A stretch of 64,000 bases of DNA, from assembly GCA_040755395.1 (NCBI GenBank), contig JBFMAX010000001.1:496001-560000 (forward strand). Direction: 5' to 3'. Within the stretch, counting starts at the first letter, position 1. Each line of letters starts with the position of its first letter. A program made the position numbers and the translations under genes. This document shows positions 21,524-56,994 of the stretch, piece after piece. The notes under the pieces are model-generated. The model saw only the letters and a program-made list of their open reading frames with translations, made no database searches and had not been told where the DNA came from. The stretch is from Nitrospirota bacterium. Its GTDB lineage: Bacteria; Nitrospirota; Nitrospiria; Nitrospirales; Nitrospiraceae.

Positions 21524-21550
21524 TCAATCCCAAGTGAGTGAGTCGGCGAG

Positions 21551-21621: not shown

Positions 21622-21795
21622 ATGGACATCGCGTGGGGAATCGCAATGGCAGGGTTCTCGTTGTTCGGGATGCTGGCGGTCTGGATCGCGGTCGAAACAA
21701 TGGAGGACGGCACCTCCGAGACCGCCTCGATGCAGAGACCCCAGGCTCCGGCAGGCATCGCCGAGCGACCGGTCGAACTCAAGAAAGCGGCATAA
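21622..21795 (+). CDS. small single-span membrane protein under sigma-54 control
   Basis: 57 residues: MDIAWGIAMAGFSLFGMLAV begins the protein and forms one membrane span (about 4-25), followed by a polar tail with Pro, Glu and a basic end. GGAGGG lies 8 bp upstream. It resembles the 65-residue product at 47901 (start MDWDIVTWGLLIGMAGMVWL): both have an acidic residue at position 2-4, a Trp/Gly/Met-rich span and a hydrophilic tail. Both genes have a sigma-54 promoter preceded by the same tandem sites. No family was recognised. A role as a stress or envelope peptide that modulates a membrane partner is possible; this is inference. Confidence 0.75.
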   Translation: MDIAWGIAMAGFSLFGMLAVWIAVETMEDGTSETASMQRPQAPAGIAERPVELKKAA

Positions 21796-36770: not shown

Positions 36771-39700
36771 ATGAGACGCACATTCCTGTTTCATGACTGG
36801 ATAACAAGGATACCCGCTGTCTATCAGTACGTTGTGATTCCAGTCCTCAGTGCGGTGTCGTTGTCGCTCCCCTGCCTGTTAGCCTCTGGCCACGCCCAAA
36901 CACCTATCACGTCGTCCGGACTCAACACGAAGGTCAACTTAAGCACATCAGAGACAGTTCCCGTAGGCAAAGTCCAATACGACATCACTGGCGGGACCAG
37001 AGAGGGGACGAACCTGTTTCATAGCTTCGGCGAGTTCAGTGTCCCGACCAACAACATCGCGAATTTTCTCAACACAGGTTCGGTTGATCTGAACGGTAGC
37101 CTACTCGCTCCCAATCTACCCACCTCCAACATTCTCGGCCGCGTCACCGGCGGCAACCCCTCCAGCATCTTCGGAACGATTCGGACTACCGACTTCGGCA
37201 ATGCAAACCTCTTCCTCATGAACCCAGCCGGGATTGTCTTCGGCCCCAACGCCAGTTTGAACGTCGGTGGGTCGGTGACCTTCACCACCGCGAACTATCT
37301 ACGGCTGGCAGAGGCTGGCGGAACGAATGCGGGAATATTTCACGCCGACCAGGCAATGATGAATAGCGTGCTGACCAGCGCCCCTGTGGCGGCGTTTGGA
37401 TTCCTGGGGTCAAATCCCGCAGCGATTTCTGTCCAAGGCAGCACCTTGGCGGTTCAACCTGGCCAGTCAATTTCCCTTGTAGGAGGGCACCAAGGATTCT
37501 CCTATTCCAACCCGGACACCGGCGTTATGGCTTCCGTGTCAAACGGCATGACCGTCATTGGTGGCAAACTCTCGGCTCCGCGAGGTCAGGTCAACCTAGC
37601 CGGCACCGCCTCGCCTGGAGAATTTCTGGCAGGAACCTGGGAGCACGCCGCCAATACCAGTGGCGAATCGTTCGGATCGCTGGGTGCGATCGAGGTCACG
37701 CAAAAATCGGCCATCGATGTGAGCGGCGCCGGTGGGGGCACCGTTCGTATTCGCGGCGGCCGCTTCGTGTTGAACGATTCAACGATCTTCGCCAACATCA
37801 CTGGTCCCGAGGTGGCCGCTCCGGGGGGCGGCATTGACATTGACGTGGCTCAAGATGCGGTGATTCAGAACGGCGCAGTCCTTCAAACCAATGTATCCGG
37901 CAATGCCACACCCGGTGTCCAATACGGCGGCGTGACCCTCAAGGCCGATCGCATCGAAATCTTGGGATCCCAGGATTTTCAGAGGCGACCCTCTACAGGA
38001 ATTGCGTCCGAAGTGGCCCTACGCAGTACGGGAGGCAGCAGTGGTGATATCAACTTGGAAGCCGACTCGATCCTCATCAAAGACTTTGGAACATTCTCGA
38101 CGCGGATAACTACGCGAACGCGCGGTGTCGGCAACTCGGGCGACATTACGCTGAAGACCACGGGCAACCTCGAAATCGACGGCGTCGTTTTTATTACGAC
38201 AAACTCATCGTCATCCCCCTCTGGAAATGCCGGGTCCATCGAGTTGATCAGTACCCAGGGAAGTATCTCCATGACGAACGCACCGTTCGTGAGTTCCCAA
38301 GCTCTAGCAAGTAGTACTGGAACCGTCGGAAGTATCACGGTTAGCGCACCAGCCGGTGATATTCTCTTGGCTGATGGAGTTCTTTTTACACGCATCGACG
38401 GGACCGGGGCGAATGCGGGAAAGGGCGGGATTCAGCTTACCGCACAGAATCTCACCATAGAAAATGCCGGCATCCAAATCGACAATTTTACGCCCTTCCA
38501 GCCGGGAGATATGACCGTGAACCTTACCGGCCGCTTGAGCCTGAGCGGCACGTTGTTCCCCTCTACCCTTCTGACGACCACACGGCGATCGGCACGTTCT
38601 GCCGATCTCAACATCACGGCTCATGACGTTCTTCTTACCGACGGCAGCCTGGTCGCCACGGAAACGTTCCGAGACGGGGATGCGGGGACTCTCAATTTCT
38701 TTACTCAGAACCTCGAGATCACTAACGGCGCGCAAATCAGAAGCAGCAGCCGATTCAATCCGTTTCCTCCTCCGGGCCAGCCACCTGAAATTCCATCCGG
38801 TGCAGGGGGAACTATCACCATCCAGGGATTGGCAAGCCCGGCGGAATCTATCCTGATCGACGGTCCCGGCAGCGGCATCTTCACCAACACGGAGGGAAGC
38901 GGCGCAGGCGGGAGCATCAGCCTCTTCGCCAATTCCGTCACGGTTCAGAATGGTGGAAAGGTGTCGGCCGCCACCTCGGGTTCGGCGACTTCGGCGACCG
39001 GTGGCACAATCACCGTGGAGGGTAGTCAGGTACAACTGGATACCGGCGCGGTCGTCACCGCCGAAACCAGCGGCCCGGCGGACGCGGGCAATATCCTCAT
39101 CAAGGCCGACACTTTCAGCATGACCGGCGGCGCGACGGTGACGGCGAACTCGACCGGCTCAGGCGCCGCCGGCACCGTGACCATCGAAGGCACGGCGAGC
39201 CCGGCGCAGTCGATCGTGATCGACGGAACGGGCAGCGGGATCTTTACTACCACCTCGGGCACCGGCGCGGGCGGCGACATGGACCTGTTCGCCGACACGG
39301 TCACACTCCAGAACGGCGGCACGCTGTCGGCCACAAGCACAGGCACCGCGGCGACTGCTGTCGGCGGCACGATCGGCATCACCGCCACGGAGTCGGTGAG
39401 CCTGACCGGCGGCGCGTCCATCGCGGCGAGCAGCAGCGGGCCGGCCGACGCGGGGAACATCGCCATCGACGCCGGCAACTCGTTCTTCATGCAGGACAGC
39501 TCGGTCACGACCAGTGCCACGCAGGCCAGCGGCGGGGATATCTCGGTCCAGGCCAGTTCGATTTTCCGGATGATCAACAGCCAGATGACGGCCTCAGTCC
39601 AGCAGGGCTCCAACACCTTTGGCGGGAACATCACGATCGATCCGCAGTTCGTGATCCTCCAGAACCAGAGCCAGATCCTCGCCACCGCCGTGGAGGGCAC

Positions 39701-40184
39701 AGGCGGCAATATCCTGATCGTGACCCCGGTCTTTCTCGCGGATCAGACGAGCCTGGTGGACGCCTCTTCGCAGTTCGGCCGGAGCGGGACGGTGACGATC
39801 CAGTCGCCGACCTCGCAGTTGGCCGGGACCTTGGCGACGCTCCCGCAGTCGGTGCGGCAGGCGGCGGCCCTCAACACGGTGCGCTGTGCCGCGCAGATGG
39901 GGGGCCAAGCGAGCAGCTTCATCGTGGCGGGGCGGGATACGCTGCCGGCGGAGCCGGGCGGGTGGATGATGAGTGCCCTCACCCTCACCCCTCCCCTCTC
40001 CCTAGCAGGGAGAGGGGAAACAGTTGAAAGCGCGGGCGCGGGGCGAGAGGCGAGGGGCGACACCCTCACCCCATCCCTCTCCCAGGGGGAGAGGGAGCAG
40101 ACCGTGTCATTGCGGCGGATGACGCCGGGCGGGTTCTTGACGCAGGCATTTGCAATTGAGGGGTCGCCAGGCTGCGGCTCGTAA
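36771..40184 (+). CDS. filamentous-haemagglutinin-type TpsA exoprotein 2
   Basis: 1137 residues. A signal region (to about residue 42, GHAQ) is followed by a TPS domain: SGLNTKVNLSTSE, YDITGGTREGTNLFHSFGEF, NPAGIVFGPNASLNVGGS, VTFTTANYLRLAE. A beta-helix repeat region follows, with an AGGSGGTITI-like and GGTLSATSTG repeat pattern in its last third. GGGAGGAT lies 5-12 bp upstream of the ATG. Its C-terminal 243 residues are almost identical to those of the gene at 28572, including the family A repeat-encoded segment. It should be exported by the TpsB encoded downstream. It is probably an adhesin or surface structural protein; the target is unknown. Confidence 0.92.
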   Translation: MRRTFLFHDWITRIPAVYQYVVIPVLSAVSLSLPCLLASGHAQTPITSSGLNTKVNLSTSETVPVGKVQYDITGGTREGTNLFHSFGEFSVPTNNIANFLNTGSVDLNGSLLAPNLPTSNILGRVTGGNPSSIFGTIRTTDFGNANLFLMNPAGIVFGPNASLNVGGSVTFTTANYLRLAEAGGTNAGIFHADQAMMNSVLTSAPVAAFGFLGSNPAAISVQGSTLAVQPGQSISLVGGHQGFSYSNPDTGVMASVSNGMTVIGGKLSAPRGQVNLAGTASPGEFLAGTWEHAANTSGESFGSLGAIEVTQKSAIDVSGAGGGTVRIRGGRFVLNDSTIFANITGPEVAAPGGGIDIDVAQDAVIQNGAVLQTNVSGNATPGVQYGGVTLKADRIEILGSQDFQRRPSTGIASEVALRSTGGSSGDINLEADSILIKDFGTFSTRITTRTRGVGNSGDITLKTTGNLEIDGVVFITTNSSSSPSGNAGSIELISTQGSISMTNAPFVSSQALASSTGTVGSITVSAPAGDILLADGVLFTRIDGTGANAGKGGIQLTAQNLTIENAGIQIDNFTPFQPGDMTVNLTGRLSLSGTLFPSTLLTTTRRSARSADLNITAHDVLLTDGSLVATETFRDGDAGTLNFFTQNLEITNGAQIRSSSRFNPFPPPGQPPEIPSGAGGTITIQGLASPAESILIDGPGSGIFTNTEGSGAGGSISLFANSVTVQNGGKVSAATSGSATSATGGTITVEGSQVQLDTGAVVTAETSGPADAGNILIKADTFSMTGGATVTANSTGSGAAGTVTIEGTASPAQSIVIDGTGSGIFTTTSGTGAGGDMDLFADTVTLQNGGTLSATSTGTAATAVGGTIGITATESVSLTGGASIAASSSGPADAGNIAIDAGNSFFMQDSSVTTSATQASGGDISVQASSIFRMINSQMTASVQQGSNTFGGNITIDPQFVILQNQSQILATAVEGTGGNILIVTPVFLADQTSLVDASSQFGRSGTVTIQSPTSQLAGTLATLPQSVRQAAALNTVRCAAQMGGQASSFIVAGRDTLPAEPGGWMMSALTLTPPLSLAGRGETVESAGAGREARGDTLTPSLSQGEREQTVSLRRMTPGGFLTQAFAIEGSPGCGS
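39456..40184 (+). repeat. near-identical 3' segment shared by the two TpsA genes, copy 2
   Basis: Partner of 31851-32573, longer by 6 bp (one extra CTCACC in the family A block). Confidence 0.85.
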
Positions 40185-40189
40185 TGACT

Positions 40190-40226
40190 GTATCGAGGTA
40201 GATACGCGGCGTATCTAGGTCGATAC
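40190..40226. promoter_or_regulatory. tandem enhancer-like sites (GTATC-N6-GATAC), locus 2
   Basis: Two perfect sites, GTATC-GAGGTA-GATAC (40190-40205) and GTATC-TAGGTC-GATAC (40211-40226), 21 bp apart. Together they make a 37-bp near-palindrome. Site 2 begins 132 bp before the -24/-12 promoter at 40343. Confidence 0.8.
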
Positions 40227-40342
40227 GATTAGGCGGCGTGGCAGGCTGGCCTGCTTACCTGCCCCAACAGGAATAGGACGTTTTTCTACGCAGAAGCGCG
40301 GAGTTATCCTTCGTGCCCGGTCGAGGGGTCTGGGCTGCTGGT

Positions 40343-40357
40343 GGGCACGGCAGTTGC
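40343..40357 (+). promoter_or_regulatory. sigma-54 promoter, locus 2 (TpsB-CHAT-DUF928 operon)
   Basis: GGGCACG-GCAG-TTGC: matches the -24/-12 consensus at all positions but the first T, with GG and GC correctly spaced. It lies about 195 bp before the tpsB start at 40552. Confidence 0.75.
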
Positions 40358-40454
40358 GCTCTTCATCGTAGCGGTGAATGGAGCCTATGACCGGTCCGGC
40401 GGGCGAGAGGGGGGAGGGAGCGGTTGCTCGGGAGGAGAAAACCCCCTCAATCCA

Positions 40455-40562
40455 CCCCTCACCCTGGCCCTCTCCCGCACGGGGGAGAGGGGATAGAGAT
40501 CAGGAGGAGGGAAAAAGAGATCGCCCTCGCCCCTTTGGGGAGAGGGGTGGGGTGAGGGGAAT
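40455..40562. repeat. dispersed repeat, family A, providing the tpsB ribosome site
   Basis: CCCCTCACCCTGGCCCTCTC and CGGGGGAGAGGGGATAGAG, then CGCCCCTTTGGGGAGAGGGG and GTGAGGGG. The GGGGAGAGG string lies about 9-17 bp before the GTG start at 40552 and can act as a Shine-Dalgarno sequence. Confidence 0.7.
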
Positions 40563-42285
40563 TCTCAGGCTTTTTATTTTTATGATGATGGCCACACTGA
40601 CAGCCTCGCCGGTCTTTACGCAGGTGCTGCCGCCGATCTTTGACCCGACGGGCCGGTCCGGCGAGCCGCCGGCGCCCTTGAAAAAAGAATTCAAGCCGCC
40701 GACGCCGCCGCCCAAACCCGCCTTGCCGCCCGTGCCGGTCCCGCCGGAGGGCGGCATTGAAAAACAGATGCCCAAGATCCGCGTCTTCGTCCATGACATC
40801 CATGTCGTCGGCAGCACGGTGTTCTCGGACGCCGAGATCGATGAAGTCGTCGCCCCGTTCCGCCAGCGGATGCTCACGACGGAAGATCTGGAGCGCCTGC
40901 GCCTCGCGCTCACCTTGATGTACGTGAACAAGGGCTACATCACGTCCGGCGCGATCATTCCAGACCAGGACGTGACGTTCGGCGTGATCACCTACCAGAT
41001 CATCGAAGGGACATTGACGCGCATCGACGTCGAAGGTAACCGGTGGTTCCGGACGTCCTATCTCCGCGATCGGGTCGCGCGCGGCGTGACGACGCCGGTG
41101 ACCCTGGCGCCGATCCAGGAGCGCCTGCAACTGCTCCAGCAGGACCCGCGCATCCAGCGGATCAACGCGGAACTGCGGCCCGGCGACCAACGCGGCGAGA
41201 GCGTGTTGAATCTGCGCGTGACGGAAGCGAGCCCCTTCAAGGCCTGGCTGGAGTTCAACAACTTTCAGACGCCGGTGGTGGGCGCGGAGCGCGGGCTGGG
41301 CACCGTCGCGCATCAAAATCTGACGGGCAACGGCGATCCGTTCAGCTTCACGTACGGGCGGTCGCGCGGGGTCGATCCGATCATCGACACGTTTTACACC
41401 TTGCCGCTGAACCGGTATGACACGACGTTCACGGCCTCCTATCGGCGCAACGATTTCCTCGTCATCGAAGCGCCGTTCCGGCCGTTGGACCTGCGGGTGC
41501 AGGCGGAGATCATCGGCTTCACCTTGCGGCATCCGGTGGTCCGGACGCTGTCCGACGAATTCGCCGTCGCGATCGTCGGCGAGCGCTTGTACAACAAGGT
41601 CACGTCGATCTTCGACGTTCCCGGCGTCGCCTCGCTCTTCATCCCCGGCTCGTCGCCGACCGGCGTGAACACGGTGAGCGCGTTGCGCTTCGTCCAGGAA
41701 TGGACGCACCGCACGACGAATTCCGTCTTTGCCGCGCGGTCGCGGTTTACGGTCGGCATCGACGTGCTGGAAGCGACCATCAATCACGGGCCGTTGCCCG
41801 ACAGCCAGTACTTCGCCTGGCTCGGCCAGATGCAGGGCGTGCGGCGCTTCGACGACTGGTGGGGCTTGCAGCTCCTCGGCCGCATGGACCTCCAGGTGGC
41901 GAACGACCGGCTGTTTCCCTTGGAGCAGGTGCCGGTGGGCGGTCGGTTCAGCGTACGGGGCTACCGCGAGAATACCCTCGTGCGCGACAACGCGTACCTG
42001 GCCTCGATCGAAGCGCGCTGGCCGTTGTGGCGTTCGGCGGCCGGCGAGGACCGCCTCCAGTTCGCGCAGTTCATCGACCTGGGGCGCGCCTGGAACGCGA
42101 AGGGCGGGACGCCGGATCCGGAGACGTTGGCCAGCGTGGGCCTCGGCGTCCGGTGGATGGTTCTGCCGCAGGACCGCGCGCGGTTCGAGGTCTATTGGGG
42201 CGTGCCGTTGAATCACGTGGAGACGCCGGGGGGCAATTTGCAGGATCACGGGATTCATCTGCAGTTCGTGGTGCAGGCGTTGTGA
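40552..42285 (+). CDS. TpsB-type outer-membrane transporter (ShlB/FhaC family)
   Basis: 577 residues from GTG 40552, giving a signal peptide (n-region RGILRLFIFMMMATLTASP, cut near FTQ). A Pro-rich linker (PPTPPPKPALPPVPVPPEGG) is followed by POTRA-type domains (about 80-240: IHVVGSTVFSDAEIDEVV, GYITSGAIIPDQDV). The rest is a 16-strand BamA-type barrel ending in HLQFVVQAL, with the conserved VPVGGRFSVRGYRE (about 465). It exports TpsA proteins such as those at 28572 and 36771. The upstream in-frame ATG 40378 would translate repeat sequence and is unlikely to be the start. It heads the sigma-54 operon with the CHAT and DUF928 genes. Confidence 0.92.
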   Translation: MRGILRLFIFMMMATLTASPVFTQVLPPIFDPTGRSGEPPAPLKKEFKPPTPPPKPALPPVPVPPEGGIEKQMPKIRVFVHDIHVVGSTVFSDAEIDEVVAPFRQRMLTTEDLERLRLALTLMYVNKGYITSGAIIPDQDVTFGVITYQIIEGTLTRIDVEGNRWFRTSYLRDRVARGVTTPVTLAPIQERLQLLQQDPRIQRINAELRPGDQRGESVLNLRVTEASPFKAWLEFNNFQTPVVGAERGLGTVAHQNLTGNGDPFSFTYGRSRGVDPIIDTFYTLPLNRYDTTFTASYRRNDFLVIEAPFRPLDLRVQAEIIGFTLRHPVVRTLSDEFAVAIVGERLYNKVTSIFDVPGVASLFIPGSSPTGVNTVSALRFVQEWTHRTTNSVFAARSRFTVGIDVLEATINHGPLPDSQYFAWLGQMQGVRRFDDWWGLQLLGRMDLQVANDRLFPLEQVPVGGRFSVRGYRENTLVRDNAYLASIEARWPLWRSAAGEDRLQFAQFIDLGRAWNAKGGTPDPETLASVGLGVRWMVLPQDRARFEVYWGVPLNHVETPGGNLQDHGIHLQFVVQAL

Positions 42286-42450: not shown

Positions 42451-42465
42451 ATGGAGATGGTTCCT

Positions 42466-44769
42466 ATGCCGCATAGAACGCTTGTCGCCATCATCTTCGT
42501 TTGCATCACCCTCGCCTTCGCCTTCCCTGCGTTGGCCGCGGGCTCTGAGCCCGCGCCGCCGGAGGGCCTGATGCAGCAGGGGGCGCAGGCGTTTGCGCGC
42601 GGGGCGTTCGATCAGGCGCTCTCGCTCTGGAAACAGGCGGCGCAGGAGTACGAACGGGCCGGGAAGGTGCGGGAACGGAGTGAGGCGCTGGTCCGCGCGG
42701 CGCAGGCGGCACACTCGCTCGGCCAGCTCAAACAGGCGTTGCAATCGCTGGAGTTGGCGCTGAACCTGGCTCAGCAGATCGGCGATCCCGTCTGGACGGC
42801 GGTCGTGCAGGACGGGATCGGGAAAGTCTACTTTGCGAACCGGCAACCCGAAGCCGCCGCGCACCATTTGTCCGAGGCCCTGGAGATCGCGAAGGCGCAG
42901 GAGGCGCGCGGGCTGACCGCCGCGATCCTCAACGACCTGGGCATCGTTCGGTCGTTCCATCAGCAGTACCTCGACGCGCTGGCGGCCTTTACCGAGAGCG
43001 ATCTATTGGCTCAGGGCGCTGATCAACCGGCGCTGGCGATCCGGGCGCGGCTCAATGCGGCGCGCGTCGCGCTCCGCTTGAAACGCCACCAGGATGCGCG
43101 CCTGTGGTTGGACCAGGTGTACGATCAACTGAAGGACCTCCCGGCCTCGCACGACAAGGCGACCGCCCTCATCGCGCTCGGCTTGCTGTACCACGAGCTG
43201 CGCGGCGCGTTTCCGGACCTCAGCGATCCGCTCGTGCTGCGCGCCGCGGCGGTCTTGCAGGACGCTGCGGCGACGGCGGAACAGATGGGCGACATCCGCA
43301 CGTTGTCCTACGCCTGGGGCTACCTTGGTCGTCTTTACGAGACGGACCATCGCTACGACGACGCGCTGACCCTGACGCGCCAGGCGGTCTTCGCGGCCCA
43401 GTCGGCGAGCGCCCCGGAATCGCTCTATCGCTGGCAATGGCAGACCGGCCGCATTCTCGCCGCGCAGGGCCGACTCGACGAGGCCATCTCGGCCTACCGC
43501 AGCGCCACGGCCACCCTGCAGCCGATCCGTCCGGAGGTGGCGACCGCCTCGCAGGATGCCGGGTCGCCCGGTCAGGGCACCGTGCGCCCGCTCTATTTCG
43601 AGTTCGCCGATCTGCTGCTGCAACGCGCCGCGCTGACGGAGGAGGGCCCCGCGTCCCAAGGCTATCTGAGGGCCGCGCGGGACGCGATCGAGGCCTCCAA
43701 GGCCGCCGAGCTCCGCGATTATTTCCGCGACGAGTGCGTCGACGCGTTGCAGGCGCACACGACCACGCTGGATGCCATTTCCACGACCACTGCGGTGCTA
43801 TACCCGATCATTTTCGCCGATCGGACCGAGTTGCTGGTGAGCCTGCCGACCGGGTTGAAGCGGGTGACCGTCCCGGTTCCGTCGACGACGCTGACACAAG
43901 AGGTCCGGACCTTCCGGCGCCTGTTGGAGAAGCGGACGACGCGCGAGTACCTGCCCCACGCGCAGCAGCTCTATGAATGGTTGCTGCGACCGCTCGACGC
44001 GGACCTGAAGGCTTTCGCCATCGACACGCTGGTGGTGGTGCCGGACGGTCCGCTCCGGACGATCCCCCTCGCCGCCCTGCACGACGGCGCCGAGTTCGTG
44101 ATCCAGCGCTACGCCATCGCCACTACGCCGGGCCTCAATTTGACCGATCCGCGCCCCCTCAACCGCGAGCGGCTGAAGATGCTGGCCGGCGGCCTCACGC
44201 AAGCCGCGCAGGGCTTTCCGCCCCTGCCGCACGTGACCATCGAGCTGCAGGCGATCCGCGCGTTGTACGGCGGCAAGCAACTGGTCAATAAGCAGTTCCT
44301 CGTGGCCGGCCTGGAAAAGGAGCTGAAGGAGAAGCCGCTGTCCGTCCTGCACATCGCGTCGCACGGCCGCTTCGAGAAAGACGTGGCGCACTCGTTCGTC
44401 CTGACTTACGACGACAAGCTGACGATGGCCAAGCTGGACCAGTACGTGGGGCTCTTCCGGTTCCGGCAGGACCCCCTGGAGCTGCTCACATTGAGCGCCT
44501 GCGAGACCGCGGCCGGCGACGATCGCGCCGCGTTGGGCTTGGCCGGCGTGGCGATCAAGGCCGGCGCGCGCAGCGCGCTCGCCACGCTGTGGTCCATCAA
44601 CGACGAGGCCTCGTCCACGTTGGTGGCCGAGTTCTACAAGCAACTCCGCGATCCGGCCGCGTCCAAGGCCGTGGCGCTCCAGCGCGCCCAACTGAAACTG
44701 CTGAGCGATCCCGTGTATCGGCATCCGGCGTATTGGTCGCCGTTCTTGTTATTGAACAACTGGCTGTGA
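42466..44769 (+). CDS. secreted TPR-CHAT caspase-like protease
   Basis: 767 residues from ATG 42466 (a GGAG lies 9 bp upstream; the in-frame ATG 42451 is an alternative). The signal peptide MPHRTLVAIIFVCITLAFAF is cut near ALA. A tetratricopeptide (TPR) region covers about 25-380 (repeats such as LNDLGIVRSFHQQYLDALAA and AWGYLGRLYETDHRYDDALT). The C-terminal CHAT domain has the catalytic His in SVLHIASHGRF (about 627) and catalytic Cys in LLTLSACETAAGDDRAALGL (about 675), ending in LFLLNNWL. CHAT proteins are caspase-like cysteine proteases. With TpsB upstream and three DUF928-like genes downstream, it resembles an arrangement known from cyanobacteria. Its substrate may be the TpsA proteins; this is inference. 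Confidence 0.9.
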   Translation: MPHRTLVAIIFVCITLAFAFPALAAGSEPAPPEGLMQQGAQAFARGAFDQALSLWKQAAQEYERAGKVRERSEALVRAAQAAHSLGQLKQALQSLELALNLAQQIGDPVWTAVVQDGIGKVYFANRQPEAAAHHLSEALEIAKAQEARGLTAAILNDLGIVRSFHQQYLDALAAFTESDLLAQGADQPALAIRARLNAARVALRLKRHQDARLWLDQVYDQLKDLPASHDKATALIALGLLYHELRGAFPDLSDPLVLRAAAVLQDAAATAEQMGDIRTLSYAWGYLGRLYETDHRYDDALTLTRQAVFAAQSASAPESLYRWQWQTGRILAAQGRLDEAISAYRSATATLQPIRPEVATASQDAGSPGQGTVRPLYFEFADLLLQRAALTEEGPASQGYLRAARDAIEASKAAELRDYFRDECVDALQAHTTTLDAISTTTAVLYPIIFADRTELLVSLPTGLKRVTVPVPSTTLTQEVRTFRRLLEKRTTREYLPHAQQLYEWLLRPLDADLKAFAIDTLVVVPDGPLRTIPLAALHDGAEFVIQRYAIATTPGLNLTDPRPLNRERLKMLAGGLTQAAQGFPPLPHVTIELQAIRALYGGKQLVNKQFLVAGLEKELKEKPLSVLHIASHGRFEKDVAHSFVLTYDDKLTMAKLDQYVGLFRFRQDPLELLTLSACETAAGDDRAALGLAGVAIKAGARSALATLWSINDEASSTLVAEFYKQLRDPAASKAVALQRAQLKLLSDPVYRHPAYWSPFLLLNNWL

Positions 44770-44926: not shown

Positions 44927-45011
44927 TTGAGCACCCATAGCCCTGAGCGTAGGAACCATGCTAGACTCTCGGCGTTCCCACCCCATGACATGGCCGGTTC
45001 TCGGAGGATCT

Positions 45012-45824
45012 ATGCGCTTCCTCCTGATCCTGACGGCCGCCGCTCTCGCCCTCGGTTTCGGTGCTTCGCCGCCGGGACTCGCCGCCGAGCCCTCCCCGCA
45101 GGCCCCGATTGAACAGGTGCAAAACGCCCCCAAGTTCATCGAGCCGACCGTGCCGGTCTACAAACCGCGCAAAGGCAGCGCGCTCCGCGGCCGGGTGGAC
45201 GGCGGGTTCCGCGGAGGAGACAAAGGCGAGCCCGTCGTCAAGGTCCTCGCGCCCGCCGACCATATCGGCTTCACCATTCGCAAGGCGCCGGCCCTGTATT
45301 GGTACCTGTCCCAGGCAACCACCTATCCGATCGAATTCACGCTGGTGGACAACCGGCACTATCAGCCGGAGCTGCAGGTGTCGCTCAAACCTCCCCCCTG
45401 CCCCGGCATTCAGATGGTCGGGCTCGCCGAGTACAACAAGACGCTGGAGGAGGAGGTGCAGTATTGGTGGCACATCGCCGTGATCGTCGACCCCGAATCC
45501 CGGTCGAAAGACATTCACTCGGCGGGCGCCATCGAACGCATTCCCTACCTGGATGCCCTCGTCGAGGGCAGGACCGCCTGTAAGGACCCGCTGGACGTCT
45601 TCTGCCTGTATGTGGAGTCCGGACTCTGGTACGACGCCATCCAGGTGATCTCCGACTTGATTACGGCGCATCCGAAGGATCGGGTTCTGCGCCTGATGCG
45701 CGCGTCCCTGTTGGACCAGGTGGGGCTGAACGACGTGGCCGACTATGACCGGATGCAGAACGGCACGCCGTGTCCGGCGCGCAAGGTGGAGGCGGACTCA
45801 GCGACCGCGTCCGCGCAACGGTAA
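45012..45824 (+). CDS. DUF928-like secreted protein 1
   Basis: 270 residues from ATG 45012 (GGAGG 4-9 bp upstream). The signal peptide ends near GLAAEP. The conserved core is YKPRKGSALRGRVDGGF, then PADHIGFTIRKAPALYWYLS, FTLVD, EVQYWWHIAVIVDPESRS and GLWYDAIQVISDLITAHP. This pattern (a W-Y-L motif, FTL, a Tyr-Trp pair and a Leu-rich end) matches DUF928, a family often found in cyanobacteria near CHAT and haemagglutinin genes. One Cys pair is seen in ACKDPLDVFC. Function unknown; it may be a structural partner of the secreted complex. Confidence 0.85.
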   Translation: MRFLLILTAAALALGFGASPPGLAAEPSPQAPIEQVQNAPKFIEPTVPVYKPRKGSALRGRVDGGFRGGDKGEPVVKVLAPADHIGFTIRKAPALYWYLSQATTYPIEFTLVDNRHYQPELQVSLKPPPCPGIQMVGLAEYNKTLEEEVQYWWHIAVIVDPESRSKDIHSAGAIERIPYLDALVEGRTACKDPLDVFCLYVESGLWYDAIQVISDLITAHPKDRVLRLMRASLLDQVGLNDVADYDRMQNGTPCPARKVEADSATASAQR

Positions 45825-45828
45825 CCCT

Positions 45829-46566
45829 ATGAACTCTCGAAGGCCGGTCATACGGTGGCTGGCGGTCTGCAGCCTGAGCCTCTCCGGCGGAGTCTTCGCC
45901 GCCGTCGCCCCGGCGACGGAATTCCAGCTTGCCCGAGAGGCGGATTCGCCGGCTCCGCTCTACAAACCCCGCGAGCGCGCCACGCCGCGCGCCCGCGTGT
46001 TCGGGCCGACCCGCGGGATCGAGGCCGACGCGCCGCAGGCGCTGGCTCTGGTTCCGGATCACATCGGCTTCACCGTGTCCGCGCAACCGACCCTCTACTG
46101 GTACCTGTCGAAGACGACCTCCCTGCCCGTCACCTTCACCCTGATCGACACGCGGGTCATCAAGCCGCTGTTTCACGTGACGCTCGCGCCTCCCCGCCGC
46201 GCGGGGCTGCAGGCGATCCGGCTGAAGGATTACGGGATCACGCTGGAAGAGCACGTGCAGTATCGCTGGTTCGTCTCTCTGGTCCCCGATCCGAATTCGC
46301 CGGCGCGCGATATCGTCACGGGCGGGGTGATCGAGCGTGTGGTGGCCAATGAAGCCGGCTGCGGCCTATCGGTCGCGGCCTCGCTGGATGCGGCCCGGTG
46401 TTACGCGGAAGATGGGTTGTGGTACGACATGTTCGCCGCCATCTCCGACCTCATCGCGGCGTCGCCCCAGGACCGGGCCCTTCGCCGAATCCGCGCCTCG
46501 TTCCTGCAGCAGGCCGGCTTGCCGGACGTCGCCGCCTGGGACTTGCGCCAAGGTGGGAGTGAGTAG
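45829..46566 (+). CDS. DUF928-like secreted protein 2
   Basis: 245 residues, starting 4 bp after the previous stop. The signal peptide ends near PATEF. It shares with its neighbours YKPRERATPRARVFGPTRG, VPDHIGFTVSAQPTLYWYLS, LPVTFTLIDTRVIKPL, TLEEHVQYRWFVSLVPDPNS and a GLWYDMFAAISDLIA end, with a C-x(12)-C pair before GLWYD. The very short spacing points to co-translation with copy 1. The three copies diverge enough to be old duplicates, not recent ones. Confidence 0.87.
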   Translation: MNSRRPVIRWLAVCSLSLSGGVFAAVAPATEFQLAREADSPAPLYKPRERATPRARVFGPTRGIEADAPQALALVPDHIGFTVSAQPTLYWYLSKTTSLPVTFTLIDTRVIKPLFHVTLAPPRRAGLQAIRLKDYGITLEEHVQYRWFVSLVPDPNSPARDIVTGGVIERVVANEAGCGLSVAASLDAARCYAEDGLWYDMFAAISDLIAASPQDRALRRIRASFLQQAGLPDVAAWDLRQGGSE

Positions 46567-46602
46567 TTTGAAAATACGGGTCCTGTCACCGCCCGGCCGG
46601 GT

Positions 46603-46632
46603 ACCCGTTGCTCCGCTCCGGTTGCAACGGGT
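46603..46632. repeat. ACCCGTTGC...GCAACGGGT hairpin, family F, copy 2
   Basis: Arms ACCCGTTGC and GCAACGGGT with a 12-base loop. It lies in a 219-bp gap (46567-46785) that also has a family A hairpin near 46712-46745. Confidence 0.8.
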
Positions 46633-46785
46633 GAAAGCTCGCACCCCGCCCGGTGTAAGGACCCCGCTGCGCGCGGACGGGCTCCCAGGGCGGTGCCACC
46701 CGCATTAGTTGCACCCTCTCCCCTGGAGGGAGAGGGTTAGGGTGATGGGGCGCGTTTTCATACTGCTCGGGTGCGTCAAGAGCAC

Positions 46786-47562
46786 ATGGTGACTCACAAG
46801 AAGAACGAGGCCTTCCCTCTTCTCCTTCTCCTCAGCGCGGCTCTCCTGGTCGGCGGGTTTGTCGCCGGTGTGCCCGGTGTCGTCGCGGCTCCTGCGCCGG
46901 CGGAGCCGGCCGCCGCTCAGATCCGCGAGCCCGCGGCGGCTCCCGACCGGCCGTTGCCAGCGTACAAGCCTCGGAAAGACAGCGTTCCGCGGGCGAGAAT
47001 CGGCGGGCCGGCGCGTGGCGGCGAGCCCGGTGATCCGGCGCTGGTCGCGTTGGTTCCCGACCATGTGGGCCTGACCTTGAAAAGCGACCCTTCGCTCTGC
47101 TGGTTCCTCTCGCGACCGACGACGCAGCCCTTGACCCTCACGATTCTGGATTCCCGCGCGATCAAGCCGATCCTCGAAGCGACGTTGCCGTCGCCCGCCC
47201 GTCCGGGCTTGCAGTGCGTGCATCTCAGAGACCACGGCATTACGTTGAAGGAACGGGAACAATACCGGTGGTTCGTCACGCTGGTGCTCGATCCGGACAA
47301 ACCCTCGCGCGATATCGTGAGCGGCGGCATGATCGAACGGATCCCGTTCAGCGAAGGATGCGCCTTGGGACTCCCCTGTTCCTGGACCTGCGAGTTGGAC
47401 GCGGTCTATCAGTACGCGGAGAACGGGCTCTGGTACGACGCGATCGCCTGCCTGCTTGAATTGATCAAGGCGGCTCCCGATGATCCGTTACTGCTGAGGG
47501 TGCTTGATCACCTGCTGAAGCAATCCGACATTCATCTGCCTCCCGTTCGCCGCGCCGGATAA
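46786..47562 (+). CDS. DUF928-like secreted protein 3
   Basis: 258 residues from ATG 46786 (an in-frame GTG lies at 46771). The signal peptide carries KKNEAFPLLLLLSAALLVGG and is cut near VVAAP. The conserved core is YKPRKDSVPRARIGGPARGG, VPDHVGLTLKSDPSLCWFLS, PLTLTILDSRAIKPILEATL, EREQYRWFVTLVLDPDKPSR and GLWYDAIACLLELIKAAPD. It has the same plan as the two upstream genes but slightly changed motifs (CWFLS for YWYLS). It is the last gene of the operon and is followed by the next sigma-54 locus. Confidence 0.85.
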   Translation: MVTHKKNEAFPLLLLLSAALLVGGFVAGVPGVVAAPAPAEPAAAQIREPAAAPDRPLPAYKPRKDSVPRARIGGPARGGEPGDPALVALVPDHVGLTLKSDPSLCWFLSRPTTQPLTLTILDSRAIKPILEATLPSPARPGLQCVHLRDHGITLKEREQYRWFVTLVLDPDKPSRDIVSGGMIERIPFSEGCALGLPCSWTCELDAVYQYAENGLWYDAIACLLELIKAAPDDPLLLRVLDHLLKQSDIHLPPVRRAG

Positions 47563-47583: not shown

Positions 47584-47620
47584 TTATCGTTTTGGATACG
47601 CCCCGCATCGCTTTCGATAC
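47584..47620. promoter_or_regulatory. tandem enhancer-like sites (GTATC-N6-GATAC), locus 3
   Basis: TTATC-GTTTTG-GATAC (47584-47599) and GCATC-GCTTTC-GATAC (47605-47620), 21 bp apart. Site 2 begins 133 bp upstream of the -24/-12 promoter. Confidence 0.7.
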
Positions 47621-47737: not shown

Positions 47738-47752
47738 TGGCATGGGTGTTGC
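47738..47752 (+). promoter_or_regulatory. sigma-54 promoter, locus 3
   Basis: TGGCATG-GGTG-TTGC, one base from the consensus, about 148 bp upstream of the small membrane-protein gene at 47901. Confidence 0.8.
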
Positions 47753-47767
47753 TGACTTCATGCTGTG

Positions 47768-47900: not shown

Positions 47901-48098
47901 ATGGACTGGGACATCGTCACGTGGGGATTGCTCATCGGGATGGCCGGTATGGTGTGGCTGATGGTTCTCGCCACGTGGGGTGCAGATCGACCCCCCGACC
48001 GTGCGGCTGAAGCTCATCCTGACGAGTCCGAGGGTTCCGTTGCGCAAGAACCGAGGACCGGCCGCCGACTGGTCGAACGACGCTCCCACGCGGCCTGA
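47901..48098 (+). CDS. small single-span membrane protein, similar to the product at 21622
   Basis: 65 residues. MDWDIVTWGLLIGMAGMVWL starts a single span (about 5-25), followed by a polar Pro/Glu/Arg-rich tail (DRPPDRAAEAHPDESEG). AAAGGAGA lies 9 bp upstream. It shares an M-D start, a Gly/Met/Trp-rich span and tail type with the 57-residue product at 21622. Both have a sigma-54 promoter and tandem GTATC-N6-GATAC sites in the same arrangement, so they probably belong to one regulon. The function is unknown. Confidence 0.75.
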   Translation: MDWDIVTWGLLIGMAGMVWLMVLATWGADRPPDRAAEAHPDESEGSVAQEPRTGRRLVERRSHAA

Positions 48099-48271: not shown

Positions 48272-48625
48272 ATGAAGAGTAACGCCATGCAGCCCGATGT
48301 GACCAACCATGGGACGCCTCGAACCGGCCGGGTGAGGAGAGCCAGGCTGTCCGTGAAGCCGGAGAAACGCCGGCTGACCTTGAACTTACCCGCGGATTTG
48401 CTGGAGCGATTGCGCAACACGGTCTATTGGAACCCCGGCCTGACGATGGCGAAACTCGTGACAGAAGCCGTCAGCGATGCGCTGGACCGCTTGGAACGCC
48501 GCAACGGAGAACCGTTCCCCCAGCGCATGGAGGAACTCAAGCCCGGTCGTCCGCGCACGTGGAAGCCTGTATCTGAACCAATACGCCCCCGTATCCAGAC
48601 AGATAACCCCGCCGCACGTCTCTAA
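48272..48625 (+). CDS. ribbon-helix-helix-like protein
   Basis: 117 residues. A basic N-terminal arm (TGRVRRARLSVKPEKRR) leads to LTLNLPADLLERLRNTVYWN and PGLTMAKLVTEAVSDALDRL, the strand-helix-helix pattern of RHH proteins that bind DNA as dimers. Similar proteins include plasmid partition and antitoxin regulators. No toxin or partition gene is adjacent. The start at 48272 has only a weak site; the ATG at 48287 is an alternative. The gap 48626-48869 has no recognisable gene. Confidence 0.65.
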   Translation: MKSNAMQPDVTNHGTPRTGRVRRARLSVKPEKRRLTLNLPADLLERLRNTVYWNPGLTMAKLVTEAVSDALDRLERRNGEPFPQRMEELKPGRPRTWKPVSEPIRPRIQTDNPAARL

Positions 48626-50081: not shown

Positions 50082-50219
50082 CCGATGGGGAGAGGAGACA
50101 GAAGAGGGGAACGGGAGAGTCACCCTGAAATTCTGAATGAGGAATGAAGAATGTGGAATGAGGAATGCGGAATGAGAAATGCCCTGACGAACCTACACGA
50201 CATTTGGGATGAGGAGGCG

Positions 50220-50648
50220 ATGACGAGAAAAAACGTTGTTCAAGAGAAGAGTTTCGCTTTTGCCTTACAGATCGTCAAGCTGAGCCGACGCCTCCGGCTT
50301 GACCGGAGAGAATTGATTCCGTCCGGGCAACTCATTCGCTCCGGCATTTCGATCGGGGCGAACATTGAGGAAGCCATAGCCGCACAAAGCAAAAGAGATT
50401 TTCTTGCGAAGATGTCCATTGCCATGAAAGAGGCGCGCGAAACCCTTTACTGGTTACGGATCTTCCACGAATCCGGCCTGGCGAATAGTCCGGAAGTCAC
50501 CATGTTGCTTCAGGAGTGCCGGGAGCTTACGAATCTCCCCAGCAGTATCACGTTGACGACCCGTCAAAACCTCCAGGCGAACAAGCGTGTTTCTTCTCCC
50601 GATGCTATGAATTCCTCATTCCACATTCCTCATTCCACATTGGGATAG
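50220..50648 (+). CDS. four-helix-bundle protein (TIGR02436-like)
   Basis: 142 residues from ATG 50220. The helices EKSFAFALQIVKLSRRLRLD, the central LIRSGISIGANIEEAIAAQS and KMSIAMKEARETLYWLRIFH are the hallmark of the four-helix-bundle family first described in 23S rRNA intervening sequences. Its function is unknown. The last residues (MNSSFHIPHSTLG) come from a family C repeat at 50608-50642, so the original end was probably near residue 125. The next gene starts 11 bp downstream, suggesting the two are co-transcribed. Confidence 0.85.
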   Translation: MTRKNVVQEKSFAFALQIVKLSRRLRLDRRELIPSGQLIRSGISIGANIEEAIAAQSKRDFLAKMSIAMKEARETLYWLRIFHESGLANSPEVTMLLQECRELTNLPSSITLTTRQNLQANKRVSSPDAMNSSFHIPHSTLG

Positions 50649-50659
50649 TGGAGGCAGCT

Positions 50660-53398
50660 ATGACCACCGCAACGGCTGAACACAGCGTGCTCATTGTCGA
50701 CGATGAAGAGGATATCGTCTTGACGCTGCGGGACCTGCTGGAGCACGACGGGTACCGGGTCGATTTCGCCGGCACCTGCGCCGAGGCCATCGCCCGCGCC
50801 GCCGAACGCCATTACAACGCGGTGCTGCTCGACCTGACTCTGCCCGACGGCGACGGGCTCACCGTGTTGAAGGCGCTGCAGGAGCGCGACCCGACGCTGC
50901 CGGTCATCGTCCTGACCGCCGACGTCTCGACGGACCGGCGGGTCGATTTGCGGACCCAAGGCGCCTTCGATTATCTGACCAAGCCCTATAACCGCGACGA
51001 TCTGCGCGCCACGCTGCGCAAGGCGGTCGGGGTCAAAGCCCTTGCCGTGAAGGCGGCCCGGGTGGAACACGCCTTGACCGAGAGCCAGGAACGGTTCCGC
51101 TCACTGGTCGAGTCGGCGACGGACGCCATCGTCGTCGCCGACCACCGCGGCCGCATCCTCTCCTGGAACCGGGCGGCCTCGACCTTGTTCGGCTATGCCG
51201 AGGCCGAGATTCTGGGCCGGCCGCTGACCGCGCTGATGCCGGCCCGTTACCGGGAGGCGCACCAGAATGGCCTGCAACGCCTCCGCGCCGGCGGCGAGAC
51301 CCGCCTCATCGGCAGAGTGGTCGAGCTGGAAGGGCTCCGGAAGGACGGCAGCGAGTTTCCGCTGGAACTCTCGCTGGCCACGTGGCGGACGCGGACCGAG
51401 ACGTTCTTCAGCGGGATCATCCGCGACATCTCCGAACGGAAACGGGTCCAGGCGGCGCTCGGGGTGAGCGAAGAGCGCTTCCGTTCTCTGGTGTCGAACA
51501 TTCCCGGCGCCGTCTATCGCTGCGCCTGCGATCCCCACTGGACGATGGAGTTCCTGACCGACGGCGTCCAGGATCTCTGCGGGTATCCCGCGTCGGACTT
51601 TCTCGGCAACCGCGTCCGGTCGTACGCCAGCGTCATCCATCCGGACGATCGGGCGACGGTCGAGCGACAGGTCCATGAGGCGGTAGCGCAGCGACGGCCG
51701 TACGTCATCGAGTATCGGCTGTTGCACAGCAACGGCGACGTCCGATGGGTGTACGAGAAGGGGCAAGGAGTCTTCGAGGACGGCCGGGTGCGCTGGCTCG
51801 ACGGGGTCATCGTGGACATTACGGACCGCAAGCGGGCCGAAGCGGCGCTCCAGGACAGCGAAGAGCGGTATCGCGCGCTCTACGAAGACAACCCGTCCAT
51901 GTACTTCATGGTCGATCCCGACGGGAGGATCCTCTCGGTCAATCCTTTCGGCGCCGAACAACTCGGCTACACCGTCGCGGAGCTCCTCGGCCGGCCGGTC
52001 CTGTCGGTGTTTCACGCCGAGGACCGCCAGGCCGTGGCCCGGGAACTCGAGATGTGCCTGGAACACTTCGGCCGGGCGATCAGTTGGGAATTGCGTAAGG
52101 TCCGGAAGGACGGGGTCGTGATTTGGGTCCGCGAAACGGCCCGGGCGGTGCAAACCGCCGCCCACGGGCCGGTCGTGTTGATCGTCTGCGAGGACATCAC
52201 CGACCGCAAACGGGCCGAAGATGCGGAGCGGGAAAGCGAAGAGCGGTTCCGCCAGTTGGCCGAACAGATCAGAGAAGTCTTTTGGCTCAGCGATGCCGAG
52301 AAAAATCGGATCTATTATGTCAGTCCTGCGTACGAGCAGATCTGGGGCCGCCCCTGCGACGCGCTCTACGCCTCGCCTCGGTCGTGGTTGGACGCCATTC
52401 ATCCCGACGACCGGCCCCGCGTGCTCGAGGCGGCGCTCACCAAGCAAGTCGGCGGAGAGTACGACGAAGAGTATCGGATCGTGCGGCCGGACGGATCGGA
52501 GCGGTGGATTCGGGACCGCGCCTTCCCTGTCCGTGACGCGACCGGCCGAGTGTATCGGATCGCCGGGCTCGCCGAGGACATCACCGACCGCAAACGGATC
52601 GAAGCAGCCCTGCGCGACAGCAACGAGCGCCTGGACCTCGCGGTGCGGGGGTCCACCGACGGGCTATGGGACGGCCGCGTCATCCCCGGCGAGCACTGGT
52701 CCTCCCCGCGGACGCCGGTCTGGTGGTCGCCCCGCCTCAAAGAGCTGTTGGGGTTTGCCGACGACGAGTTCCCGGACGTGCTGGAGAGTTGGTCCTCCCG
52801 CCTCCATCCCGACGATAAGGACCGGGTCTTTGCCGCGCTGACGGCGCACATCGAGCGGAAGGAGCCGTATGACGTGGAATATCGGTTGCTGAACAAGGCG
52901 GGCGAATACCGGTGGTTCCGCGCCAGAGGGCAGGCCGTCTGGGACGACCAGGGTCGGCTGGTCCGAATGGCCGGCTCCCTGCAATGCGTCACCGACCGGA
53001 AGCGCGCGGAGGAAGCCCTGCGCGCGAGCGAGGAGCGGTTGCGGCTGGCGCTTCGCGCCGCCGACTTGGGGGTGTGGGATTGGGACCTCCGCTCGGGCCG
53101 CGTGTATTGGTCCGAGACCGTCGAAGCGTTCTTCGGCCTCCCTTCCGGTTCGTTCCCCGGGACGCATGCCGCGTACCTCGATCTCATTTACCTCGAGGAT
53201 CGCGGCCTCGTGCTGCAGGCCGTTCAGGACGCCGTCGAGGGACGAGCGGCGTTCGAGATCGAGCATCGGGTGGTCCGGCCGGACGGCACGCTGCATTGGC
53301 TGGCCTGGTCGGGCCGGGTCATGCGGGAGACGGACGGAACGGCGATCCGGATCCTCGGCACGGTGCGGGACGTGACGACAGCCAAACAACGCGCGTGA
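50660..53398 (+). CDS. REC-PASx6 signalling protein without a kinase domain
   Basis: 912 residues from ATG 50660 (GTGGAGG 6 bp upstream). The receiver (about 10-130) has VDDEED, the phospho-acceptor in LLDLTLPDGDG (about 56) and the conserved Lys in YLTKPY. At least six PAS/PAC units follow to the end, each closed by a D-I-[ST]-[DE]-R-K-R motif, such as IIRDISERKR, VIVDITDRKR and SLQCVTDRKR. There is no HisKA, HATPase, GGDEF or EAL domain: the protein stops at VRDVTTAKQRA, immediately before a family A repeat. Its first 270 residues resemble those of the kinase at 56995. It may be a phospho-relay sensor scaffold, or a kinase that lost its output. Confidence 0.9.
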   Translation: MTTATAEHSVLIVDDEEDIVLTLRDLLEHDGYRVDFAGTCAEAIARAAERHYNAVLLDLTLPDGDGLTVLKALQERDPTLPVIVLTADVSTDRRVDLRTQGAFDYLTKPYNRDDLRATLRKAVGVKALAVKAARVEHALTESQERFRSLVESATDAIVVADHRGRILSWNRAASTLFGYAEAEILGRPLTALMPARYREAHQNGLQRLRAGGETRLIGRVVELEGLRKDGSEFPLELSLATWRTRTETFFSGIIRDISERKRVQAALGVSEERFRSLVSNIPGAVYRCACDPHWTMEFLTDGVQDLCGYPASDFLGNRVRSYASVIHPDDRATVERQVHEAVAQRRPYVIEYRLLHSNGDVRWVYEKGQGVFEDGRVRWLDGVIVDITDRKRAEAALQDSEERYRALYEDNPSMYFMVDPDGRILSVNPFGAEQLGYTVAELLGRPVLSVFHAEDRQAVARELEMCLEHFGRAISWELRKVRKDGVVIWVRETARAVQTAAHGPVVLIVCEDITDRKRAEDAERESEERFRQLAEQIREVFWLSDAEKNRIYYVSPAYEQIWGRPCDALYASPRSWLDAIHPDDRPRVLEAALTKQVGGEYDEEYRIVRPDGSERWIRDRAFPVRDATGRVYRIAGLAEDITDRKRIEAALRDSNERLDLAVRGSTDGLWDGRVIPGEHWSSPRTPVWWSPRLKELLGFADDEFPDVLESWSSRLHPDDKDRVFAALTAHIERKEPYDVEYRLLNKAGEYRWFRARGQAVWDDQGRLVRMAGSLQCVTDRKRAEEALRASEERLRLALRAADLGVWDWDLRSGRVYWSETVEAFFGLPSGSFPGTHAAYLDLIYLEDRGLVLQAVQDAVEGRAAFEIEHRVVRPDGTLHWLAWSGRVMRETDGTAIRILGTVRDVTTAKQRA

Positions 53399-53507
53399 AG
53401 GGGAAGAGCAGCTATCAGCTACACCCCTCACCCTCCCCTCTCCCACCACCGGGGGAGAGGAGCAAGGTGAGGGGGATTTTCGACCGGGGCATGAGGAGCC
53501 CGACTTG

Positions 53508-54443
53508 GTGAGGAGACGGTCGTTCGCCACCACCCTGTTCTTCATCTGCCTGCCGATGATGATCGGCGAGGCCGCCGGTTTATTCCCCGCCGCCGCCGCC
53601 GAGTTCGCCATTCTCAAATCCTCCAACATCAAGGCGTACAACGACGCCGTCGACGGCTTCAAAGCGGCGGCGCCCAACGGCTCGACCTTCGGGGAATACG
53701 ATCTGGACGGCGACCTGGACCGGGGCCGCAAGCTCGCGCGCAAGATCCGCGCGTCGGACGCCGCGTTGGTCCTGGCCGTGGGCTTGAAGGCGGCGATAGC
53801 CGCCAAACTGGAGATCGTCGATACCCCGGTCATCTACGTGATGGTGCTCGACCCCTCGAAGCATGATCTGACGGCGCCCAACATGACCGGCATCCTTCTG
53901 GAGGTGCCGCTCGACCGGCAGCTCGGCACGATCCGGTCGCTCCTGCCCGGCCAACGGCGCGTCGGCGTCATCTACGACCCGAGCAAGACCTCGGCCGTCG
54001 TGGAGGAGGCGCGCCGCCAGGCCAAGGCCTACGGCTTGGAACTCGTGGCCGCTCAAGTGTCGAGCGAAAAGGACGTGCCGGCCTCGCTGCGGACTCTGCT
54101 GCCGACCGTCGGGGCGCTGTGGCTGGTCCCGGATTCGACGGTCTTGACCGATGAGTCGCTCAGGTACATCCTAAACACGGCCTTGGACCAGAAAGTCCCG
54201 GTCATCGGCTTTTCGCCGGAATTCGTCCGGAGCGGCGCGCTGCTCAGTCTCTCGGTGAACTACAGAGACATCGGCCGCCAGGCGGGCGGTCTGGCCCGTC
54301 GGATTCTGGACGGCCACGTCAGCCTGCCGCTCAAGGCGGTTCCGGCCGACCGGATCAAGATGACCCTGAATTTGAAAACGGCGCGGTTCCTGGGCATCGA
54401 CATTCCCAAGGAGATCGAAGCCCGCGCCGATGAAACGTATTGA
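53508..54443 (+). CDS. ABC-type substrate-binding protein (PF04392-like)
   Basis: 311 residues from GTG 53508 (AGGAG 9 bp upstream; the adjacent TTG 53505 is possible). The signal peptide has TTLFFICLPMMIGEAAGLFP and is cut near AAAAEF. The periplasmic-binding fold shows AILKSSNIKAYNDAVDGFKA, a GILLEVPLDRQLGTIRSLLP segment and VIGFSPEFVRSGALLSLSVN. This group of binding proteins is often encoded with sensor kinases instead of ABC permeases. Here the end overlaps the start of the kinase gene by 14 bp, so it probably senses a ligand for that kinase. No permease or ATPase is present. Confidence 0.87.
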   Translation: MRRRSFATTLFFICLPMMIGEAAGLFPAAAAEFAILKSSNIKAYNDAVDGFKAAAPNGSTFGEYDLDGDLDRGRKLARKIRASDAALVLAVGLKAAIAAKLEIVDTPVIYVMVLDPSKHDLTAPNMTGILLEVPLDRQLGTIRSLLPGQRRVGVIYDPSKTSAVVEEARRQAKAYGLELVAAQVSSEKDVPASLRTLLPTVGALWLVPDSTVLTDESLRYILNTALDQKVPVIGFSPEFVRSGALLSLSVNYRDIGRQAGGLARRILDGHVSLPLKAVPADRIKMTLNLKTARFLGIDIPKEIEARADETY

Positions 54444-56737: not shown

Positions 56738-56775
56738 GTATCCCATCCGATACCGTTTCGTATTGCATTCGATAC
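56738..56775. promoter_or_regulatory. tandem enhancer-like sites (GTATC-N6-GATAC), locus 4
   Basis: GTATC-CCATCC-GATAC (56738-56753, perfect) and GTATT-GCATTC-GATAC (56760-56775), 22 bp apart. Site 2 begins 133 bp upstream of the -24/-12 promoter at 56893. Confidence 0.75.
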
Positions 56776-56892: not shown

Positions 56893-56907
56893 TGGCACGC
56901 CGGTTGC
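56893..56907 (+). promoter_or_regulatory. sigma-54 promoter, locus 4 (kinase operon)
   Basis: TGGCACG-CCGG-TTGC, a full match to the -24/-12 consensus, about 90 bp upstream of the kinase start. A family A hairpin lies between it and the start (about 56931-56980). Confidence 0.87.
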
Positions 56908-56994
56908 TCCTTCCCTGCCTAGAATATGCCCCCTCACCCTCCCCTCTCCCCCAGGATGGGGGGAGGATAAAGGTGAGGGGTGAGCCAAGGGCTC

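Follow-up and report, generated by a model that had tools for sequence, protein, structure and literature searches.

We report that tandem GTATC-N6-GATAC sites upstream of -24/-12 promoters define a real, lineage-wide sigma-54 regulon in the order Nitrospirales, for which a good candidate activator and a good candidate kinase can be named. The starting point was a 64-kb window (the whole stretch of DNA that was analyzed, from a Nitrospirota bacterium), in which the original prediction had described a sigma-54 regulon governed by tandem enhancer sites; genome-wide counts, the distribution among relatives and the coupling of the sites to promoters strongly support that description. Nitrospira oxidize nitrite and perform comammox in soils, waters and treatment plants, and their genetic manipulation is hard. 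Here, a site that is readable straight from genomes leads to a regulon and to its likely activator and kinase. The site also yields a list of secretion and effector genes under common control whose functions are unknown (TPS-CHAT-DUF928, caspase, TIR-STAND), and makes their regulation testable.

The window carries six tandem pairs, with the two sites 21-23 bp apart and at most 3 mismatches in 20, all on the plus strand, as are the promoters of the window and its genes between 21622 and 48098 and between 50516 and 60436 that are named below. They lie at 2191-2229 (sites 2191/2214, spacing 23, 2 mismatches in 20), 21350-21387 (21350/21372, spacing 22, 3 mismatches in 20), 40190-40226 (40190/40211, spacing 21, both sites exact), 47584-47620 (47584/47605, spacing 21), 48569-48606 (48569/48591, spacing 22) and 56738-56775 (56738/56760, spacing 22). 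Four pairs had been claimed originally, each with a -24/-12 promoter; all four are real and every coordinate given for them and their promoters was correct, but the count was too low, as the pairs 2191/2214 and 48569/48591 had been overlooked. Exact 16-mers stand at 40190, 40211 and 56738, three observed versus 0.01 expected from dinucleotide shuffles of the window, while the sites at 21350, 47584, 47605 and 56760 deviate at one position and that at 21372 at two. Among the site-to-site distances of up to 80 bp in the window, six are of 21-23 bp and only two have other values. Random sequence does not produce the pairing at a similar rate: 60 Markov windows contained no pair within the limits of 3 mismatches and 21-23 bp spacing, versus six in the window.

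Sigma-54 promoters were scored with a hand-weighted consensus that was set before the relatives were looked at, with a cut-off of at least 0.84 in this genome. When the six best -24/-12-like sites of the window are taken from both strands, five lie downstream of a pair. Two of these reach the full consensus score (TGGCACGGTGGTTGCT at 21509-21524 and TGGCACGCCGGTTGCT at 56893-56908); the others are GGGCACGGCAGTTGCG at 40343-40358, TGGCATGGGTGTTGCT at 47738-47753 and, weakest of the set, the -24/-12-like site CGGTACGACGGTTGCT at 2325-2340, 95 bp past its pair. Downstream of the 48569/48591 pair, this score found no convincing sigma-54 site. Close to the sigma-54 promoters, or between them and the first open reading frames (ORFs), the window also contains dispersed G-rich/C-rich repeats of the CCCTCACCC...GGGGAGAGGG type, which are capable of forming hairpins (around 40000-40560 and at 56930-56975).

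Across the 4.11-Mb assembly (G000), the scan for paired sites at the same mismatch limit returned ten pairs, at spacings of 21, 22 and 23, and the reversed-pattern control returned none. Six of the ten are inside the window, and the rest are at C4:9801, C4:252489, C7:42296 and C2:201875. Seven of the ten are followed, at a distance of 95-127 bp, by a sigma-54-like site scoring at least 0.84; the expectation is about 0.01 such sites per pair. RpoN itself is encoded in the genome (PF04552 at C10:128794). Eight further exact 16-mers occur outside pairs in the whole genome. We rejected these as functional sites and take them as chance occurrences; because they have neither a partner nor a sigma-54 promoter, it is the pairing that marks function.

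The paired site is a trait of the order Nitrospirales. It is present in 36 of 65 genomes of the order versus 4 of 132 from elsewhere in the phylum (Fisher 3e-17), and the reversed pattern is found in 0 of 197 genomes across the phylum. In a set of 61 genomes made up of the host and its relatives, 26 have a pair at spacing 22, and the reversed control matches in one. An exact-pair scan of 84,980 species genomes gave matches mostly in Nitrospira and Nitrospirota records. One genome of a genus other than that of the host, which we take as N. defluvii FP929003 (G029), has eight pairs at spacing 22; this kinship suggests that the host is Nitrospira-like.

Promoter coupling extends over the same set. 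A strong sigma-54 site lies 55-165 bp from the pair at 54 of 166 unique Nitrospirota pairs, compared with 3 in a control interval of 200-310 bp. In a larger locus set, the count is 61 of 178 unique pairs versus about 1.8 expected, a roughly 30-fold excess, and about two thirds of Nitrospirota pairs have no strong site by this simple score. GTATC-N6-GATAC is the consensus over the 61 loci with both pair and promoter. The distance between the two was originally described as fixed. This holds for the spacing within pairs (21-23 bp) but not for the promoter: from the start of the second site to the -24 element there are 132-137 bp at the first four loci and 111-143 bp at the seven loci of this genome, and among the 61 promoters at Nitrospirales loci the gap from pair end to -24 spans 62-155 bp (mean 103, SD 22), so the promoter distance is not fixed. 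The strongest period in this gap is 11.5 bp (R 0.43, n = 61), with a weak signal at 10.5 bp (p 0.03); since the periods were scanned after the fact, helical phasing is suggestive only.

Could the pairs be copies of a dispersed repeat, or chance matches? In some unrelated genomes (Bacteroidaceae, Treponema) they do occur as plain tandem repeats, the pairs outside Nitrospirota are mostly tandem repeats with no sigma-54 sites, and in the window dispersed G-rich repeats lie near some promoters. The N6 centers, spacers and flanks vary between loci, however, the shuffle and reversed-pattern controls stand at zero, and the 54 of 166 coupled pairs in the Nitrospirota set contrast with 3 of 34 elsewhere, so that we regard this explanation as next to impossible. 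The three coupled pairs outside the set belong to the Latescibacterota records L164 and L186 and to a comammox-like CMX record (L198). In L164 and L186, the tandem pairs are exact and the strong sigma-54-like sites are at 73-88 bp; a Nitrospinota record (L193) has an exact tandem pair with a weaker sigma-54-like site. The pairs in Latescibacterota and Nitrospinota suggest either spread of the system or a wider origin.

The promoter counts also bear on a second explanation, under which the sites would be targets of a non-AAA+ response regulator and the sigma-54 sites would be there by coincidence. The model for this is the autoregulated RhpR of Pseudomonas syringae, for which the identical 16-bp string, GTATC-N6-GATAC, has been published as the site (PMC4191427). 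The original statement that no regulon with this site had been described was therefore wrong as regards the string; of a sigma-54 regulon with tandem sites we found no description in the literature searched. RhpR sites are described as single and with many mismatches rather than as tandem pairs spaced 21-23 bp and coupled to a -24/-12 element, whereas strong sigma-54 sites accompany the pairs here at the excess given above and the regulators linked to pairs are AAA+ activators. We therefore consider an RhpR-like regulator very improbable, and we return to the sigma-54 regulon in what follows.

The genes at the pairs in the window include, as predicted, small membrane proteins, the TpsB-CHAT-DUF928 genes and a sensor kinase behind pair promoters. 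Behind the 21350 pair is a 57-aa single-TM protein (MDIAWGIAMAGFSLFGMLAVWIA...ELKKAA, 21622-21795), with relatives behind pairs in G053, G037 and on C2 of the host genome, where the C2:201875 pair precedes a small membrane protein that resembles it. A 65-aa small membrane protein (MDWDIVTWGLLIGMAGMVWLMVLATWG..., 47901-48098) follows the 47738 promoter. Very small single-TM proteins of one family (M-x-AWGI-x-M...) are encoded immediately after sigma-54 promoters with tandem pairs in two families of bacteria; members are the window protein at 21622-21795, one from G000:C2 202,119 onward (L059:10119-10280), one at about 8180-8299 of L341 and one in L068. The KAA ends of several of these small proteins could be a C-terminal degradation signal. 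The 40190 pair directly follows a gene for a TPS-domain exoprotein (36771-40184; PF05860, 4.7e-34) and is itself followed by a TpsB-type outer-membrane transporter (POTRA_2, ShlB; 40378-42285, with the true start probably further in than 40378), a TPR-CHAT protein (42451-44769; PF12770, 1.9e-55) and three DUF928 proteins in 44958-47562 (44958-45824, 45745-46566 and 46771-47562).

Elsewhere in the host genome, the C4:252489 pair precedes the gene for a 1945-aa TPS-domain exoprotein, beside a cluster of sigma-54 activators, with only a weak sigma-54 site (score 0.81) towards the TPS gene, and the C7:42296 pair precedes a receiver protein and two histidine kinases. Taken together, the targets in the host are TpsB-CHAT-DUF928, the C4 TPS exoprotein, small single-TM proteins, and receiver and kinase genes. 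Between the C4 TPS gene and the activator cluster (L055:7975-9482, G000:C4 about 252,975-254,482) there are two copies of a receiver-domain gene, one of them truncated, which flank a ParE-like toxin and antitoxin-like gene pair. In relatives, where a fixed rule took the best ORF following the promoter as the target and some picks are wrong (e.g., an Obg-like ORF in L067), the ORFs behind pair and promoter encode a patatin, two Tle1-like lipases, a TIR-nSTAND1-FGE protein, a subtilase, an eCIS-core-domain protein, a non-specific endonuclease, a phosphoesterase, an animal-type heme peroxidase, a caspase, a polysaccharide deacetylase and an M48 peptidase, as well as TPS exoproteins and receivers. 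We read surface and lytic functions as the common theme. The TIR-nSTAND1-FGE protein, with an architecture like that of conflict systems, occurs behind a pair and a sigma-54-like site in two Nitrospirales genomes (L103:15154-17769 and L221).

The activator had been predicted to lie outside the window, and this is borne out: when proteins with long PF00158 domain matches are counted, the genome has about 28 sigma-54 activators, none of them in the window, and the best candidate is encoded on a different contig. A comparison of the activator repertoires of pair-bearing genomes from three families leaves three clades common to all. One of these contains L033, L024 and L291, which have a common HTH, LGLQRTYLARLIKQ. 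L033 is a receiver-AAA+-HTH protein encoded at C4:254868-256250 (clade HTH GNQTKAAExLGLQRTYLARLIKQ), 2.3 kb from the nearest pair, C4:252489. Four relatives (G037, G040, G051, G053) carry a tandem pair ahead of genes for a receiver protein and an L033-type activator; in G037 and G051 a sigma-54 site stands between the pair and this operon, and in G040 and G053 none was found at that pair. G053 has two further pairs, each with a sigma-54 site, one for a hybrid kinase and the other for a small protein plus a receiver. In G034, a pair and a sigma-54 site precede an operon that encodes a binding protein, a kinase and the activator L291. N. defluvii has a weak pair (4 mismatches) upstream of its L033 orthologue, which lies near 1,929,000 of FP929003; no sigma-54 site was found at this pair. 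Based mainly on this adjacency of pairs and operons, a protein of the L033 clade is likely to be the activator. Since the activator's own operon has a pair upstream in relatives, the system is probably autoregulated.

Strict orthologues of L033 are limited to G029, G037, G040, G051 and G053 and are missing from many pair-bearing genomes. We thus rejected L033 as a universal regulator, although it remains the best candidate here, and sister paralogues must act elsewhere. An alternative is that the regulon is real but is driven by L024 or by a different one among the roughly 28 activators, with L033 being a regulated gene or the regulator of a subset. L024 has an HTH very similar to that of L033 (LQRTYLARL) and is present throughout the order, and in G050 and G060 the kinase discussed below adjoins an activator from the L024 side of the tree. 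Yet L024 sits in a housekeeping neighborhood with no pairs in G000, G034 and G047 and also occurs in pair-less genomes, the pairs standing instead at genes of the L033/L291 type. We judge this alternative unlikely, but it deserves some weight. L020, which adjoins L033 and has a kinase gene behind it, was rejected as the activator: it occurs throughout the window's family, pair-less genomes included, and is absent from the pair-bearing G037 and G051.

For the kinase, the window itself offers the candidate. Its cluster consists of a receiver-multi-PAS protein with no kinase domain (50516-53398), an ABC_sub_bind periplasmic binding protein (53505-54443; 59% identity to the binding protein of the G034 operon), a TM-HAMP-GAF-HisKA-HATPase kinase (54430-56661), a receiver-PAS-GAF hybrid histidine kinase (56980-59799) and, after it, a single receiver-domain protein (59999-60436). 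Upstream of the receiver-PAS gene lies a gene of the 23S_rRNA_IVP (four-helix-bundle) family (50151-50648). The kinase at 54430-56661 is 52% identical over 523 aa to the activator-adjacent kinase of G053 and 45% identical over 758 aa to that of G034, the latter two being 46% identical to each other. The 56738 pair starts 77 bp after this gene, and the hybrid kinase behind the pair is 49-59% identical over parts to the one behind a pair and promoter in G053; because these hybrid kinases are related, two families share the order kinase, pair, promoter, hybrid kinase. The kinase tends to be present in genomes with at least two pairs (16 of 21 genomes against 7 of 40, p 1e-5, a value that ignores kinship). 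These homologies and gene orders point to the window kinase as the likely cognate kinase of the activator.

We consider it probable that the sites are tandem dimer sites of a two-component sigma-54 activator, most likely L033, working with the window kinase. Activators of the NtrC type bind as dimers at two sites that lie two helical turns from each other ahead of a -24/-12 promoter, nucleate an AAA+ oligomer and loop to sigma-54 polymerase. The mechanism that we infer for the present system is similar. One activator dimer would bind each GTATC-N6-GATAC site, and the spacing of 21-23 bp (two helical turns) would place the two dimers on the same side of the helix, where they would nucleate an active AAA+ ring. 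The ring would then loop to RNA polymerase-sigma-54 at the -24/-12 promoter some 60-155 bp away. The activator would be a receiver-AAA+-HTH response regulator, presumably L033, with the universal paralogue L024 as the alternative, and would be phosphorylated by the TM-HAMP-GAF kinase (54430-56661), whose signal may come from the neighboring periplasmic binding protein (53505-54443). Tuning of the system would fall to the receivers and hybrid kinases encoded behind other pairs, and its outputs would be surface, secreted and lytic proteins.

As to what the system might do, one reading is that an autoregulated sigma-54 two-component switch turns on effectors of a lytic or cell-death type together with TPS surface proteins, serving antagonism or programmed lysis in nitrifiers. 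The effectors in this reading would be the CHAT and caspase proteases, TIR-STAND, the patatin and Tle1-like phospholipases, the nuclease and the peroxidase. We offer it tentatively, as a possibility that we would at present bet against.

Among known systems, NtrC-type activators resemble the proposed one in that two dimer sites, separated by a whole number of helical turns, stand about 100 bp ahead of the -24/-12 promoter, and in the receiver-AAA+-Fis-HTH architecture; site sequence, HTH and target genes differ. RhpRS of Pseudomonas syringae/savastanoi is a two-component, autoregulated system with single, degenerate sites (PMC4191427, PMC6426608). It has in common with the present system the inverted repeat GTATC-N6-GATAC, the two-component character and autoregulation (proposed here), and differs, by its published descriptions, in that neither the tandem layout nor a sigma-54 element has been described for RhpR. 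In the Nitrospira literature, a search that covered few subscription journals found no description of such a sigma-54 regulon.

By layout, the closest regulon is the PEP-CTERM-box regulon of PrsK/PrsR in Proteobacteria, in which a motif, sometimes repeated, lies upstream of a sigma-54 promoter with a mean spacer of 62.8 bp; its motif 1 is a 17-mer ending in TTTACA, confined to Proteobacteria and to PEP-CTERM genes (PMC1569441). We rejected the identity of L033 with PrsR: it scores 430.5 bits against a TIGR02915 cut-off of 502.6, the best of ten proteins scored being L022 at 439.6, and L033 passed the cut-off of none of the NCBIfam activator families. The two systems are alike in combining a motif with a sigma-54 promoter, in having been approached by comparative genomics, in a receiver-AAA+-Fis activator with a kinase, and in their many surface or secreted targets. 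Unlike the PrsR boxes, the consensus here is GTATC-N6-GATAC and not a motif ending in TTTACA upstream of PEP-CTERM genes, and the kinase here, unlike PrsK, has a TM-HAMP-GAF architecture. PrsK/PrsR comes nearest in layout and differs in site, phylum and activator.
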